Shown here in pieces: positions 33,168 through 40,309 of a stretch of 40,309 bases of DNA (the stretch's first letter is position 1; each line of letters starts with the position of its first letter). Where the stretch lies: assembly GCA_027051095.1 (NCBI GenBank), contig JALUAM010000050.1, forward strand, positions 1 through 40,309, written 5' to 3'. A program made the position numbers and the translations under genes. The notes beneath the pieces are model-generated. The model did not search any database. It saw only the letters and a list, made by a program, of their open reading frames with translations, and was not told where the DNA came from. The stretch is from Acidilobaceae archaeon. Its GTDB lineage: Archaea > Thermoproteota > Thermoprotei_A > Sulfolobales > Acidilobaceae.

Positions 33168-34149
33168 TAGCGGGAGGAGGCTCTGGATGATAGAAGCCTG
33201 CAACCTGCACGGAGGCGTTGAGCTGGTGCGGGGGCGTAGGTGTAGCCGTAGGTGCGGCTATAATAGCCGTTTCGGCCCGGTGGGCCAGAAACGCCTTCTC
33301 GTACTCCCTTAAAGCGTCCTCGGTGGTTAAGTGGAGGTACACTTGAGTCACTTTTATGTCGCTGTGGCCTAAGAGCTTCTGGAGAGACGCTAGGCTTATA
33401 CCCCTCCTTAGCGCCTCGGTGGCAAAAGTATGCCTGAGAATGTGAGGGGAAACCCTGCGCGGGTCGACCCCCGCCCTCTCAGCCAGCTTCTTAATCCTCT
33501 TATAAACCGCTTTATAAGATAGAGGGATAACTCTGCCTTTCCACCCACTCCTAACACCAGCCTCCATGATTAGGGTTCTAGAGATAGGTCCTAGGGCTAC
33601 CAGTCTCTCCTTTCCATACTTTCCCCTGACTCTGGCAACGCCGCGCTCCAGGTCGACATCCTTGTATTCCAGGGAGAGCAGTTCGCCGACTCTCATCCCT
33701 GTCTCAGCCATGAGTGCTACTATGAGGGCGTCGTAAAGGTCTCTTGCAGCTGATATGAGGGCTTCAACCTCGCCCCATGATAAGGCGCCTCTAACCCTTC
33801 TAGGCCCTTTAGGCAGAGCTGGAGCCTCGGTTAGCGAGCCGGCCCATTTAAGAAATTTTCTCACGAGCACGGTATAGTAGTGGGAGGTTGCTTGAGAAAG
33901 GCCTCCTTTAGACGCCATTCTAGAGAGCGAAGCAGACCAAGCCAGGTAATCGCTATCCCCCACAGAGTACATAGGCCTGTTGGGCCCTGCGAACTCAGCG
34001 AACCTTTTCAAAGCAGCCTTGTAGACCTTCAAGGTCCTATTGCTAGCCCCCGACGCCTCCAGGTATTTAAGAAATATCTCTATGGCCTGCTCGAGTGTTA
34101 GCCTTTCTAACCCCTTAGGAGGAGGAGGTAAGGGTATCGATAGCCGCAA
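33058..34149 (-). CDS. xerA: Tyrosine recombinase, Xer-like, with extra C-terminal tail
   Basis: This 363-residue recombinase has an N-terminal SAM-like core-binding domain (about 18-105) and a catalytic domain (about 120-290). Catalytic residues are Arg153 (ETGMRVGE), Lys177 (VRGKYGKERL), His236 and Arg239 (SPHILRHTFAT), His262 (LLGHSD) and Tyr271 (TQVYLHLTT). The pattern fits archaeal XerA, which resolves chromosome dimers at dif. Residues about 296-363 form a Pro/Gln/His-rich tail not expected in XerA; it is encoded opposite and past the surE end and may come from loss of the original stop. A mobile-element integrase is the alternative, since a tRNA-like sequence lies just upstream. Confidence 0.88.
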   Translation of the reverse strand: MRLSIPLPPPPKGLERLTLEQAIEIFLKYLEASGASNRTLKVYKAALKRFAEFAGPNRPMYSVGDSDYLAWSASLSRMASKGGLSQATSHYYTVLVRKFLKWAGSLTEAPALPKGPRRVRGALSWGEVEALISAARDLYDALIVALMAETGMRVGELLSLEYKDVDLERGVARVRGKYGKERLVALGPISRTLIMEAGVRSGWKGRVIPLSYKAVYKRIKKLAERAGVDPRRVSPHILRHTFATEALRRGISLASLQKLLGHSDIKVTQVYLHLTTEDALREYEKAFLAHRAETAIIAAPTATPTPPHQLNASVQVAGFYHPEPPPAINAQQHQYQLQPSQPASVGPRPHALLYPNRRHPFQP

Positions 34150-37634: not shown

Positions 37635-37712
37635 GGGCCCGTCGTCTAGCCCGGTTAGGACGCCGCCCTCACACGGCGGAGGTCCGGGGTTCAAATCCCC
37701 GCGGGCCCACCA
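37635..37712 (+). tRNA. tRNA-Val (anticodon CAC), CCA encoded
   Basis: The acceptor stem GGGCCCG pairs with CGGGCCC, with discriminator A and encoded CCA (37710-37712). The D-arm contains AGCCCGGTTAGGA, the anticodon arm CCGCCCTCACACGGCGG has the loop CTCACAC with anticodon CAC, and the T-arm is CCGGGGTTCAAATCCCCG. No intron. The sequence right after the CCA encodes an integrase-like C-terminus, so this tRNA probably served as an integration target. Confidence 0.95.
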
Positions 37713-37965
37713 CAGAGCCATTACAGAGCGGTTCTATACACTGGAGCTGCAGGTCCTGCTGGGCCATGCGGCCCGGGAGGTAGTCGAGAAGCACTACCTC
37801 CTCCGCGACCAGATCGAGGACCTGCGCCGGAAGTACGATCTCGCCATGTCTTACGTGCTGTGCCTGGGAGAGGAGGGGGGAGAAGGTGGGTGGTGGCTGA
37901 GCCTACGGCTCCTCACGGCCTCTCTAAGCCCGAGAGGGTGGCTAAGCTCTACCGTAAGAGGATAG
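37711..37965 (+). pseudogene. Remnant of an SSV-type integrase C-terminus (int(C))
   Basis: The open frame running out of the tRNA-Val gene encodes ITERFYTLELQVLLGH, then VVEKHYLLRDQIEDLRRKYD and further. An LGH box followed ten residues later by HY, and then by a basic helix, is the layout of the catalytic His and Tyr region of SSV-type tyrosine integrases (Tyr codon at 37795). The upstream catalytic boxes (Arg, Lys, HxxR) are missing, so this is a remnant only. The stop at 37963 lies inside the next gene. The orientation (sense with the tRNA) differs from SSV1. It is strong evidence for past site-specific integration at tRNA-Val. Confidence 0.6.
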
Positions 37966-38123
37966 TCCCGAGCGGCCGGGTCTACGTGCACAAGCTCGGC
38001 TACGACGCCTACAGGCTCGACGCTATACCTGGCGATGTCAGGAAAGAGTACGAGGAGAAGCGCCGGGCGGCGATGCAGCCCCTCCTGGAGGAGCTGGAAA
38101 AGGCGTGGCTAGGTGAGGGCTAG
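37893..38123 (+). CDS. Small basic protein of unknown function
   Basis: This protein of about 76 residues from the GTG at 37893 (GGAGGGGGG upstream; a GTG at 37860 would add 11 residues). It is basic and helical with LYRKRIVPSGRVYVHKLGYD in the middle, followed by DVRKEYEEKRRAAMQPLLEE. No family is recognised. It overlaps the integrase remnant at its start and meets the minus-strand small gene at its end with a four-base overlap. In the island context it may be a DNA- or RNA-binding accessory protein. Confidence 0.6.
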   Translation: MAEPTAPHGLSKPERVAKLYRKRIVPSGRVYVHKLGYDAYRLDAIPGDVRKEYEEKRRAAMQPLLEELEKAWLGEG

Positions 38124-38317
38124 GAGCGGGCAAGCCTCTTAAGCTCCCTTATGAGGTCCTTGTAGGTTATCTTGCCCAGTGTGAAGTCGTCTAGCAGCCT
38201 CCCCGCCTTCTCCCTGTCCCTCGCCTTGAGGTATAGTCTGTGGATTAGCAGGGTCCTCCTCTTAACTACGGCCTCGTGCCTCGCAACCTCCTTCTTAAGC
38301 GAGGACACCCCAGCCAC
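38120..38317 (-). CDS. Small helical protein downstream of the PIN gene
   Basis: This 65-residue basic helical protein (KKEVARHEAVVKRRTLLIHR, LDDFTLGKITYKDLIRELKR) has a GTG start preceded by GAGGGGGG. It starts 14 bases after the PIN-domain gene and shares its direction. Its size and location make it a candidate antitoxin or partner of the PIN protein, although no known antitoxin fold (AbrB, RHH, Phd) is evident. Function is not known. Confidence 0.6.
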   Translation of the reverse strand: MAGVSSLKKEVARHEAVVKRRTLLIHRLYLKARDREKAGRLLDDFTLGKITYKDLIRELKRLARS

Positions 38318-38331
38318 CCCCCTCTAAGAGG

Positions 38332-38727
38332 CTACTCTACGGGTATAAATATGGGTCTGCGCCCGGTCTGGTCGCTGTAGAACTGGAATAGCCTTAGATC
38401 GCACGTGGCGAGGATGGCGTCTAGCTCTATCGCGGACAGGGCTATCATGACGTCTGCTGGGCCGATCTCCCTAACCCACCTGCCATACCTGCCTAGCCTG
38501 CGCTCCAGCTCCCTAACCCTAGGCCCCTCTGGCTGGCCTAGCATCTCCATCGCCTGCCTCCTCAGCCACTCCCTCCCGCTGGCCTCTATGTCATAGAGGA
38601 CCGCGTACGTCAGGCACGCGTGCTCCAGGATGCACCTGGCTATGCTCCTCAGCGGCTCCCTGCCGCGCGCTGCTACCCATATCACGCATGTGTCAGCCAC
38701 TACCTCACAGCTCCTCCTCGCCGCCAT
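38332..38727 (-). CDS. PIN-domain protein (VapC-like ribonuclease)
   Basis: About 131 residues. The PIN fold is shown by VVADTCVIWVAARG near the N-terminus (first acidic residue, Asp), a central helical part with conserved Glu, ADVMIALSAIELDAILATCD (second acidic cluster) and LRLFQFY at the end. PIN domains are metal-dependent RNases, and many are VapC toxins. The ATG at 38727 overlaps the end of the upstream 232-residue gene, so both come from one mRNA; the next gene is a 65-residue helical protein. No upstream VapB-type antitoxin is visible; the partner may be one of the two neighbours. Confidence 0.72.
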   Translation of the reverse strand: MAARRSCEVVADTCVIWVAARGREPLRSIARCILEHACLTYAVLYDIEASGREWLRRQAMEMLGQPEGPRVRELERRLGRYGRWVREIGPADVMIALSAIELDAILATCDLRLFQFYSDQTGRRPIFIPVE

Positions 38728-39403
38728 ACTCGCCCTCCTCAAGGGCCTTCAGTATCTCCTCCTCGCTCGGCACCCCCTCCCTGCAGAGCACCTCTATGAG
38801 CACGGAGTAGCGTGTGCTCGGGGGTGGCCCCCGGGGCCTGTAAGCCCACTTTAAGCCTTCCCACGCTACTAGCCCGGCCATGGATTCTTTGAGCTCCTCG
38901 CAGTCCCCCCTCCTGGGCGCCGTGAGATATGGGGCTAACTCGGAAACGTCGCCTCTCTCGAGGAACCGCCGGAGGGCCTGCTTGAGGGCCTCAGCGCTAC
39001 GCTTACCCCACCTATATCCCCTAGCGAAGTCGTAGCTCACGCCCTCCTCGCCCCTCTTAACAATCGCCCTGGCGTCCTTCCCCGCTATGCGCCTGGGCAG
39101 CCTCTTCCTCCGCAGGGCGTAGGCTACCAGGCGCTTGATGACCCTAAGCTCAGCCTCGCTAGCCCCGTGTATCCTCGCGAGGCGTACAATGAACCTGAGG
39201 CGCCTCTCCGCCAGGTCCCAGGCCATCCTAATTTTCTTACAATCGTCGTTATCATACGTGTACCCCCTCCGCCAGTCCCTGAGGACCGCCCAGGCCAGCG
39301 CCACAGCCTCGCTAATAGTGTCCACCCCGGGCCTCTCGATCCTCCGGATAAACCAGCCCTCCCTCCGGGCCATGCAGCTATCTCTACCTTGATACACAGG
39401 CAT
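38705..39403 (-). CDS. Uncharacterised Arg-rich protein, 232 residues
   Basis: From the ATG at 39403, with GGAGGTGAGAGT directly ahead, the protein has 232 residues; the frame is open to 39502, but the longer start would run through the upstream gene. It is rich in Arg, Ala and Leu, with helical segments such as KKIRMAWDLAERRLRFIVRL and LRVIKRLVAYALRRKRLPRR. RGDCEELKESMAGLVAWEGL occurs later. No membrane segment or family is recognised. It overlaps the PIN gene by 23 bases and probably belongs to the same operon, so a nucleic-acid or PIN-related role is possible. Confidence 0.65.
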   Translation of the reverse strand: MPVYQGRDSCMARREGWFIRRIERPGVDTISEAVALAWAVLRDWRRGYTYDNDDCKKIRMAWDLAERRLRFIVRLARIHGASEAELRVIKRLVAYALRRKRLPRRIAGKDARAIVKRGEEGVSYDFARGYRWGKRSAEALKQALRRFLERGDVSELAPYLTAPRRGDCEELKESMAGLVAWEGLKWAYRPRGPPPSTRYSVLIEVLCREGVPSEEEILKALEEGEYGGEEEL

Positions 39404-39407
39404 ACTC

Positions 39408-39620
39408 TCACCTCCGGCCCCCAAGCAAGAGGAAGCCCAGGACAGCCGCGGCCAGGATGCCAGCCGGGACCAGCAGCCCACGGAGCCCGGAGCCGCCCTC
39501 ACCCTGGAGGGTGATGGTTTGGACCTGGGTAATGACAGTTGGCTTCCCAGATATCGTTGTGGTTATGATTTTCGTTGTCGTTGTGGTTATCGTTTGGTTT
39601 TCGTGACCGTCTGCCGCCAA
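39408..39620 (-). CDS. Thr-rich tail-anchored membrane protein, probably a surface protein end
   Basis: A 70-residue reading frame starts with TTG. It has a Thr-rich stalk (TITTTTTKIITTTISGKPTV, then VITQVQTITLQ) and one C-terminal membrane segment (LLVPAGILAAAVLGFLLLGG) ending with RR. That plan is typical of archaeal surface proteins held by a C-terminal helix. The upstream reading frame overlaps this one by 34 bases in a frame differing by one, so the two may be one protein split by an indel, or overlapping coupled genes. The next gene downstream (start 39403) follows within five bases. Confidence 0.55.
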   Translation of the reverse strand: MAADGHENQTITTTTTKIITTTISGKPTVITQVQTITLQGEGGSGLRGLLVPAGILAAAVLGFLLLGGRR

Positions 39621-39856
39621 CCGCTAACGCCAGGCCCTATTTGCTCCTCAGCCTTTAGGTTCCCATTGCTATCGTAAACCCTGACTGTGCCCTCGCAGCT
39701 CATTCCCAGGCTCCCGCCCAGCCCAGCCCCGCTTGCAGCCGCCGCGCTGGGTGTCCTCGGATTCACGCTTTTGAGGCGGAGGTGAGGTCCTACGCAATCG
39801 TTAACCACCCGGTTAACGATAATAGCGTCTGTCACGCTGGATGCGATAACCACCAC
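39587..39856 (-). CDS. Upstream part of the probable surface protein (start uncertain)
   Basis: This 89-residue frame has an Ala/Gly-rich linker (SAAAASGAGLGGSLG) and a beta-rich part (EGTVRVYDSNGNLKAEEQIG, GVSGWRQTVTKTKR). The palindrome at 39797-39820 lies inside the first codons, so the true start is probably a later GTG (for example the one encoding VNPRTPS). Its end overlaps the Thr-rich frame. Read together with a one-base shift, the two give a beta domain, a Thr stalk and a membrane tail, which would be a complete small surface protein. Confidence 0.45.
   Translation of the reverse strand: MVVIASSVTDAIIVNRVVNDCVGPHLRLKSVNPRTPSAAAASGAGLGGSLGMSCEGTVRVYDSNGNLKAEEQIGPGVSGWRQTVTKTKR
39797..39820. 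promoter_or_regulatory. 24-base perfect inverted repeat between divergent genes
   Basis: ATCGTTAACC (39797-39806) and GGTTAACGAT (39811-39820) are exact inverse copies around ACCC. Each arm contains GTTAAC. It lies at the head of the minus-strand surface-protein gene and 55 bases before the plus-strand gene at 39876. An operator for a dimeric regulator is the simplest reading; a recombination site is an alternative. Confidence 0.55.
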
Positions 39857-39875
39857 CCTAGGCCTGGGCCTGAGA

Positions 39876-40088
39876 GTGCCCGAGGCCGGGCCCCTCGCCT
39901 CGAGGCTGCTACCTTCCTTAGGGCCTCTCTACTGGCCTCTGCAGGCCCTGGTGCTGCTGTGCCTCTACAGGCTGCTTAGGAGGGCGGGGCTCCCCCCGGA
40001 CTGGGCCGCCGCGGTCGCGGCGCTGGGGCCCTGGGCCGCTGGGTGGCATAATGCAGGTTTATTGTTGAGGGGTGCCCCGGGTGTCTAG
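39876..40088 (+). CDS. Small membrane-like protein before the PIN gene
   Basis: This 70-residue protein from the GTG at 39876 has one or two hydrophobic segments (LYWPLQALVLLCLYRLLRRA and WAAAVAALGPWAAGWHNAGL). The gene overlaps the next PIN gene start by 17 bases, so the two are probably translated together. The family is not recognised. Its coding nature is supported by the overlap and by the hydrophobic pattern, but the region is GC-rich, where chance reading frames are common. Confidence 0.45.
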   Translation: MPEAGPLASRLLPSLGPLYWPLQALVLLCLYRLLRRAGLPPDWAAAVAALGPWAAGWHNAGLLLRGAPGV

Positions 40089-40309
40089 CAGGGCCCGGGA
40101 GAGGCGCTGCCGGGACGCGGTCTGCTACGTGAACGCTAACCTGCTGGTAGCCCTGGATAGGAGGGATAGGAGGGCTATAGAATTCGCGGGGAGAAACCGG
40201 GGCTGCCTCTACACTGTAGCAGAGGTAATCGAGGACGAGGTGCCAGGGGCCGCCGAGATAGCCCGGAGGCACGGGATACTAGTTAGGACCGTGAGCCGGG
40301 GGTTGATGG
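40072..40309 (+). CDS. PIN-domain protein, 3' end outside the window
   Basis: The frame from the GTG at 40072 runs to the window end (79 codons). After a basic N-terminus (RARERRCRD), AVCYVNANLLVALDRRDRRA resembles the first PIN strand and helix, although Asn replaces the usual first Asp (YVNANLL). GCLYTVAEVIEDEV has the second conserved acidic position, and AAEIARRHGILVRTVSRG follows. It may be the partner of the small membrane-like gene before it, or one of several PIN toxins of this island. The rest of the catalytic site is not visible here. Confidence 0.6.
   Translation, partial: MPRVSSRARERRCRDAVCYVNANLLVALDRRDRRAIEFAGRNRGCLYTVAEVIEDEVPGAAEIARRHGILVRTVSRGLM

Follow-up and report, generated by a model that had tools for sequence, protein, structure and literature searches.

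A probable decayed provirus in the tRNA-Val(CAC) gene of an Acidilobaceae archaeon, at a site apparently shared with toxin-antitoxin cassette arrays in its relatives

The window analyzed here is the whole of contig C50 (GenBank JALUAM010000050.1, 40309 bp) of a metagenome-assembled genome (MAG) of an Acidilobaceae archaeon (76 contigs, 1.43 Mb, 83% complete). Its end carries a tRNA-Val(CAC) gene and, behind it, the left part of an integrated element that is very probably the relic of a decayed provirus, ordinary in kind. The tRNA-Val genes are a hotspot in this genome and its relatives, and their occupants comprise fuller elements with the window type of integrase, elements with another integrase of 467-amino-acid (aa) type (int467) and restriction-type cargo, and tandem toxin-antitoxin (TA) cassettes without an integrase. 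What is new lies in the site rather than in the window's occupant.

Organization of the tRNA-Val(CAC) region

The region contains the following features, open reading frames being abbreviated ORF and attachment sites att.

37635-37712, +: tRNA-Val(CAC) gene, the integration target (attB) (ARAGORN)
37663-37709, +: attL core (47 bp from the tRNA 3' half), with its counterpart attR on contig C14
37713-37729, +: 17 bp equal to the left end of the element on contig C29; left arm and integrase codons 1-364 gone beyond this point
37738-37866, +: C-terminal remnant of a predicted pNOB8-type tyrosine integrase, 43 codons, with LGH box and HY tyrosine
37887-38114, +: end of a gene for a DnaA-like viral ATPase, with the C-terminal 76 aa left (93% identical to the 214-aa product on C29)
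38120-38317, -: 65-aa ORF, function unknown
38332-38742, -: PIN-domain protein, 136 aa (Pfam PIN, 8.4e-5, 23.6 bits, equal to the cut-off)
38705-39502, -: 265-aa ORF, homologue of guttavirus APOV1 orf14, true start probably more internal
39408-39620, -: Thr-rich 70-aa protein with a hydrophobic stretch at the C terminus (from the sequence)
39587-39856, -: 89-aa ORF, unknown, no convincing family match (Pfam, PHROG)
39876-40088, +: hydrophobic 70-aa ORF, unknown, no family match (Pfam, PHROG)
40072-40309, +: start of a protein continuing on C14, PIN-like by eye, not recognized by Pfam
40183-40309, no strand: exact 127-bp overlap with the end of C14 (5470-5344), where the two contigs would join and the element would run on to attR

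An earlier reading of the letters without database searches (the sequence-only reading) had described a tRNA-Val gene followed by an integrase piece and then by small or unknown genes, among them two PIN-domain proteins. The tRNA-Val gene and the small genes are as described. The two PIN assignments fared unevenly: the protein at 38332-38742 (-) stands exactly at the Pfam cut-off, and the one that starts at 40072 (+), extended into C14, has no convincing Pfam or PHROG match. Pfam also recognizes an HTH_31/HTH_3 protein among the element genes, and the PIN and HTH genes are presumably simply what remains of the element. When the window end was compared by blastn, no phage record matched, and the plasmid records gave a single match, a 49-bp tRNA-like stretch of an Arthrobacter plasmid.

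Integrase and ATPase remnants

An open frame extends from within the tRNA as far as the stop codon at 37963-37965, and its translation includes TLELQVLLGHAAREVVEKHYLLRDQIEDLRRKYD. This frame matches the C-terminal end of the PHROG integrase family phrog_5127 (positions 316-352 of 355, E = 3e-4), as the sequence-only reading had expected of a profile search; Pfam returned no match for the 81-aa fragment. Positions 37738-37866 are 93% identical to residues 365-407 of an integrase of 415 aa that the genome encodes on contig C29 (locus L034), intact and behind tRNA-Val(TAC). The integrase piece is therefore real, but it represents the last tenth of the protein and not the last third, and the tail that was read through to 37965 holds the LGH and HY codons but also includes, in another frame, the start of the ATPase remnant (37887-38114).

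Two skips separate the window from C29. The first 17 bases past the CCA are shared exactly, after which the window skips to codon 365; at the second skip, the integrase end is joined to the C terminus of a 214-aa ATPase. The window is thus a twice-deleted version of the C29 left end, with DNA identities of 85.5 and 88.0% in the two matching stretches. A 66-aa ORF of C29 lies in the position matching the 65-aa ORF of the window, with no significant similarity. The C29 ATPase has relatives in 71 phage-collection records, many of them with a DnaA-like annotation, and among the records tallied these relatives belong largely to Sulfolobus spindle-shaped viruses (SSVs).

The C29 integrase matches PF00589 (40.4 bits; cut-off, 27.1) and phrog_5127 (4e-55), scores below the cut-off of the SSV-type domain Phage_integr_3 (PF16795; 13.4 against 27 bits), and is related to integrases in 14 Sulfolobales plasmid records, with pNOB8 (NC_006493) not among the ten listed. 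Judged from the sequence of this full-length copy, the window integrase is of the pNOB8 type and not, as had been proposed, of the SSV type. Neither the C29 integrase nor int467 had a match in the phage collection, from which records near the window may be left out. Among 98 genomes searched with the window fragment, 10 gave matches (its own included), the best being the C29 copy and that of the congener G004, a single open 452-aa frame beside tRNA-Val(TAC). At 7 of 10 other loci, the homologue is unsplit and has the same direction as the tRNA that it follows (tRNA-Val, -Asn, -Gly, -His, or -Thr); the remaining three lie in stretches without a tRNA, and two of them are truncated or broken (L005, L011). 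The sense orientation, from which a different integration design had been suspected, is therefore the usual one in this family. Window-type integrases have the arm motif CTATACGC beside the same tRNA-Val core, differing in this from int467.

On contig C52 of the same genome (L051; 3802-4208, -), a window-family integrase, broken into pieces in different frames, comes after a tRNA-Val(GAC) gene. The latter is a third tRNA-Val gene of the genome once used by such an element.

Far end of the element

The final 127 bp of the window recur once in the genome, as an exact overlap with the end of contig C14 (5470-5344), and C50 and C14 are presumably neighboring contigs. Contig C14 has, at 3298-3252 (-) and in the same orientation as in the window, a repeat of the tRNA-Val(CAC) 3' half that includes the anticodon and agrees at 46 of 47 bp. 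This attR is the second copy of the tRNA half that the sequence-only reading had predicted, 4.69 kb downstream, and it falls outside the window because the window is the whole of C50. With the two contigs joined as presumed, the element measures 4692 bp from attL to attR, and the tRNA gene is restored on its left side.

Directly behind attR on C14 is an amidase-like gene. In the congener G002, the thrS end and tRNA-Val(CAC) align with the window (74% over 613 bp), and an orthologue of the amidase-like gene, 51% identical over 435 aa, follows an insert of another kind, a 1.02-kb TA unit. The proposal that related genomes would lack the window's genes at this locus is borne out in this one relative. 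Together, the unique overlap, attR, and the amidase synteny indicate a single integrated element of 4.7 kb, and, with the integrase match, they uphold the relic of a site-specifically integrated element that had been suggested.

Viral relatives and probable decay

G004 has an element of 38,049 bp bounded by tRNA-Val(TAC) and a copy of its 3' half, and over 339 bp the right ends of the two elements are 74.6% identical. From its size, we take the G004 element to be provirus APSV1 of Aeropyrum pernix K1, reportedly described by Mochizuki et al. 2011. The two have the same integrase family in sense behind tRNA-Val, and a similar right end and attR flank motif. The window element differs in its target (tRNA-Val[CAC] instead of TAC), its size (4.7 kb instead of 38 kb), its broken integrase, and its inner genes, which are unshared in the parts compared.

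A second set of similarities is to APOV1 (Betaguttavirus kodakarajimaense, NC_028256). The 265-aa ORF is 52% identical to orf14 over 118 aa (7e-33), the HTH gene on C14 matches within the orf5 coordinates (41% over 58 aa, 4e-8), and the virus has a 28% relative of the C29 ATPase. When the element ORFs were searched against APOV1 alone, no match appeared beyond orf14 and the orf5 region, so only two of them are convincingly matched, and none to other APOV1 genes. APOV1 differs further in that its integrase is annotated as putative SSV-type; the available text of PMC5882108 locates it in tRNA-Leu. The element is filed only as provirus-derived, without assignment to Guttaviridae or to an APSV1-like virus. 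Classical (type II) pNOB8-type integrases and plasmids resemble the C29 and int467 types in having the gene unsplit beside a tRNA, with identities to the listed Sulfolobales plasmid records of about 27 to 35%.

What we observe at this locus is a pair of repeated att sites, synteny on both flanks, points of deletion that show against the intact C29 copy, and homologues in viruses. In the decayed-provirus account, a pNOB8-type tyrosine recombinase would have integrated the element into the 3' half of tRNA-Val(CAC), restoring the tRNA gene at the left (attL) and leaving a 47-bp copy of the 3' half at the right (attR, on C14). An internal deletion would then have removed the left arm and integrase codons 1-364, and another the stretch from the integrase end into the DnaA-like ATPase gene, an order of events that we infer; through these deletions, the element would no longer be able to move itself.

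Several points weigh against this account. The evidence for joining C50 to C14 is an assembly overlap plus synteny, in a MAG that is 83% complete, and the C29 contig could come from another strain. The G+C content of the element (0.62, against 0.53 for window positions 1-37634) counts against a firm assignment of its origin. The middle of the element has no match in the compared parts of the G004 element (560-563 kb lay outside the comparison), so a second insertion could account for part of it. In the part of PMC4158269 available, both A. pernix proviruses are described as bounded by parts of a split integrase, in contrast to the G004 integrase at tRNA-Val(TAC), which is open over 452 aa.

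A chimeric assembly, with the contig end misjoined and the integrase fragment an artifact involving the C29 element, is very unlikely: the MAG is in 76 contigs, a close copy exists on C29, and tRNA-Val repeats can break assemblies, but at 85.5 and 88.0% identity to C29 the window copy is not the same sequence misplaced, and both flanks are syntenic with G002. Least probable of all, to the point of being hardly credible, is a suicidal SSV-type element whose integrase was split on insertion with int(N) at the far end, because, although only a C-terminal fragment adjoins the tRNA, contig C65 has an SSV-type integrase, and PMC4158269 in its available part reports split integrases, the C29 homologue stands unbroken at its tRNA and does not reach the PF16795 cut-off, its relatives are unsplit at 7 of 10 other loci, and its sole match among the element ORFs is the C-terminal piece, the int(N) fragment proposed to go with the second tRNA half having no match among them. 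In the window copy, the loss of the first 364 codons is due to deletion and not, as first supposed, to splitting.

The SSV-type integrase (PF16795) on C65 (L037, 9113 bp; features at 26-56 and 958-1479) belongs to a second element of the genome. Close to it, where the contig ends, is a tRNA-like 3' half, and a resolvase-like ORF occupies 1737-2255.

Toxin-antitoxin cassettes behind tRNA-Val genes

A search with thrS and tRNA-Val disclosed extra tRNA-Val 3' halves 0.75 to 1.4 kb behind tRNA-Val genes in relatives. The halves were searched for in 48 family genomes, 40 of which gave matches, and downstream stretches were examined for nearly all. Tandem halves lie behind tRNA-Val(CAC) or (GAC) in G002, G003, G004, G012, G013, G017 (two arrays), G018, G020 (two arrays), G023, G027, G033, and G037, as well as in G006 and G030, where the tRNA is cut by the contig end. 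The typical unit is 685 to 905 bp long (about 0.8 kb; G+C content, 0.37 to 0.42), with type D and fused units reaching 1.0 to 1.4 kb, and it is made up of a TA pair, a conserved tail of 106 positions, and the 3' half of a tRNA-Val gene. By toxin domain and adjacent small antitoxin-like gene, the cassettes are predicted type II TA pairs, and five types are distinguished with Pfam.

Type A: AF2212-like + PemK/MazF
Type B: DUF433 + DUF5615
Type C: small unmatched gene + PIN
Type D: 75-aa gene + PIN_2
Type E: 70-aa gene + ParE

Their order differs among arrays.

G018: C-A-B
G013: A-B-C (inverted)
G012: C-B-A
G003: A-E
G037: B-B
G105: A-E-B-B, behind a GmrSD_C unit

In all-against-all blastn comparisons, units of different genera are homologous over their whole length from CCA to core (G013u1/G017gac_u1, 90%; G023u1/G030u1, 91%; G018u3/G037u1, 90%), and G012u1 and G018u1, also in different genera, are homologous over nearly the whole unit. 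Homologous units stand in different order and at different tRNA-Val genes. Where units carry different genes, homology is confined to the end, typically the last 95 to 155 bp. The consensus of this tail has 106 positions, and consensus folding of 25 tails, tRNA core excluded, yielded no pairs and no conserved fold.

In G013 (L044; 7850-8740), one VapBC cassette is inverted in the array, and the neighboring core is TTTAAA in the T-loop, a palindrome. The first units are fused in G004 (L040; the start of A, then D) and G006 (L045; D, then E). A supposed array in G010 was dropped, being a real tRNA, and the second tRNA-Val copy behind tRNA-Val(TAC) in G037 (L126) is probably no unit but a tRNA gene missed by ARAGORN. 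Some halves that are short or odd, behind tRNA-Asn (G005, G020, G016) and tRNA-Val(GAC) (G018), were set aside, and three G020 intervals (3.1, 1.4, and 2.4 kb) are not simple cassettes.

Spread of tails and cassettes

A tail model, built from sequence only and from family genomes, matched 22 of the 48 family genomes (E = 0.001), 43 of the 214 genomes of the order, in seven families (E = 1e-5), and 44 of the 229 of the class; the window's own genome had no match to it. We examined 74 tails in 49 loci of 41 genomes, leaving out matches in G098, G130, G068:C141, and G218. Wherever the stretch contained a same-strand tRNA upstream of the tail, this was tRNA-Val (44 of 44; 37 CAC, 4 GAC, and 3 TAC), and 30 of the 74 tails had no tRNA upstream within the stretch. 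A clear tRNA-Val core follows the tail in 53 of 71 scorable cases (29 of 39 in the family and 24 of 32 outside it), against 0 of 71 in shuffled controls. At least one protein of the five TA types is encoded by 63 of the 74 units, and at least two by 53.

Between genera and families, cassette proteins were compared with the XerA-like recombinases of the same genomes, which served as the sole vertical marker. Identity is higher for the cassette protein in all 14 pairs for MazF (79.6% versus 46.3% for XerA-like), all 24 for DUF433 (79.7% versus 46.4%), 19 of 24 for DUF5615 (66.1% versus 46.4%), and all 3 for VapC (87.8% versus 53.8%). Eight named records have an exact tail-core junction, including Thermodiscus, Zestosphaera, Pyrodictium, and Acidilobaceae MAGs; Aeropyrum and Thermodiscus belong to Thermoprotei, Acidilobaceae. 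In viral contigs, the exact 27-bp tail-core junction was not found, and the MazF of cassette A gave 14 loci with short matches only (38 to 47% over 34 to 50 residues).

A candidate recombinase

Directly behind tRNA-Val(CAC) and in sense with it, G019, G041, and G008 carry int467, at 89 to 100% identity to one another and with one internal stop in the G008 copy. This integrase is of the pNOB8 type (34.8% identical to that of the Sulfolobus NOB8H2 plasmid, NC_006493, one of 14 Sulfolobales plasmid records) and is 26% identical to the C29 integrase. Its left arm has two to three GCATAT repeats, as in ATGCATATC, within the first 96 bp behind the tRNA; the three arms together hold 8, with about 0.1 expected per arm. 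Since int467 and the window-type integrases sit at one core with different arms, two pNOB8-type lineages share the tRNA-Val core.

By sequence, the arm motif found in the cassettes is that of the int467 lineage: GCATAT occurs 100 times in the 74 tails, against 2.5 expected in shuffled tails, in an enrichment that is not independent, the tails having been found by similarity.

In G019, a cassette-type tail lies 6.6 kb beyond int467, at the contig end, and presumably closes the same element; an AAA_14 ATPase and a GmrSD_N protein with a 194-aa partner are encoded in between. The G041 copy runs into a gene that by eye resembles an HsdM-type methylase. In G018 (L171/L113, C5:267000-281500), BREX-like genes lie between the TA array and a further tail copy at 267090, an interval of about 14 kb that encodes BrxL (1.6e-109), an HmaB-like methylase (1.5e-45), and a large ATPase.

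Two other recombinases were considered as movers of the cassettes. XerA, whose gene is the sole PF00589 match in G003, G018, G012, and G062, was set aside once int467 with the same arm motif had been found. SSV-type integrases are present in 12 of 19 array genomes and absent from seven, including G003, G002, and G062, so that no link exists.

Proposed integron-like exchange and alternative explanations

The tRNA-Val hotspot is probably shared with an apparent integron-like system of TA cassettes that did not turn up in the literature searches made. We likewise judge it reasonably probable that tRNA-Val in Thermoprotei is an integron-like platform, at which an int467-type recombinase acting in trans exchanges TA cassettes across genera and families. 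Integrase-less cassettes of about 0.8 kb, mostly TA pairs, would carry an attP-like tail with GCATAT arm repeats and a tRNA-Val 3' half and would be inserted successively behind tRNA-Val, the recombinase being supplied by larger restriction or defense elements that use the same tail. Mobilization in trans by int467-type enzymes would be the simplest explanation of the cassettes.

Beyond the dependence among tails already mentioned, a number of results count against this scheme. Cassette 5' ends are not enriched for GCATAT (2 seen and 1.9 expected in 25 ends), so the cassettes would be one-armed. Close int467 copies (89 to 100%) occur in only 3 of 214 genomes; all three have tails (P = 0.008 over the order and 0.09 within the family), and 40 of the 43 tail genomes have no int467 relative at E = 1e-40. 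A good tRNA core is missing from 18 of the 71 scorable tails. ParE is not clearly more alike between genomes than XerA-like is (51.2% versus 47.1%, higher in 6 of 14 pairs).

The scarcity of int467 relatives in tail genomes also speaks for an unlikely but serious alternative, the spread of cassettes by homologous recombination between tRNA-Val halves and shared tails, with no site-specific recombinase. Repeats of about 150 bp permit such exchange, and the single-contig genomes G003 and G062 have only the XerA-like PF00589 match; PF00589 misses some pNOB8-type genes, however, among them an integrase of this type at tRNA-Asn in G003. The GCATAT arm repeats of the tails recur beside int467 at tRNA-Val(CAC), and unit ends are precise at the tRNA 3' end, both of which argue for a site-specific process. 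We hold it to be similarly improbable that the TA units are immobile, independent deletion remnants of larger elements, each reduced to its addiction module. The window itself illustrates decay by internal deletion at this site, TA genes may resist loss, and the first units of G004 and G006 resemble fusions of two cassettes; yet homology extends over nearly whole units across genera, in varied order and at various tRNA-Val genes, and independent deletions would not be expected to produce the same ends.

Like integrons, including archaeal ones (PMC9668308, in its available text), the arrays are tandem series of small units with a common recombination site, different cargo, and shuffled order, and TA pairs are a frequent cargo. 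In conserved site and cargo they thus look, by sequence, like the tandem cassettes of integrons. They differ in being anchored at a tRNA gene and in their site, a tRNA-Val 3' half plus a 106-position tail, in which no attC-like conserved fold was found; nor was an integron integrase found beside the arrays of G003, G018, and G012, where the PF00589 match lies far from the array or on another contig. TA cassettes are reported from archaeal integrons in PMC9668308, whose available main text never uses the words tRNA, Crenarchaeota, or Sulfolobales. VapBC genes flanked by degenerate insertion sequence copies in S. islandicus, described in the available part of PMC3718332, present a different picture from the arrays. 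Among the matches listed in searches of titles and abstract beginnings, a coverage outside of which most subscription journals fall, no paper names tRNA-Val TA arrays.

If the arrays are mobile, hyperthermophilic archaea would have an integron-like form of gene capture based on a tRNA gene and a plasmid-type integrase, a platform devoted mainly to toxin-antitoxin and restriction genes. TA modules would thereby have a concrete path for spreading and building up in archaea, and integrase-less elements would live off related integrases at one att site, beside relics like that of the window. Mobility is directly testable in cultured Aeropyrum pernix and A. camini.

Additional observations

The window has a XerA-like recombinase gene (PF00589) at 33322-33771 (-), about 4 kb from tRNA-Val, and the corresponding gene of G002 is likewise near tRNA-Val(CAC). 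In G056 (L198; 4334-4726, +), an ORF that begins upstream of tRNA-Val(CAC) reads through the tRNA, and its start, by eye, resembles the N terminus of the integrases described here.

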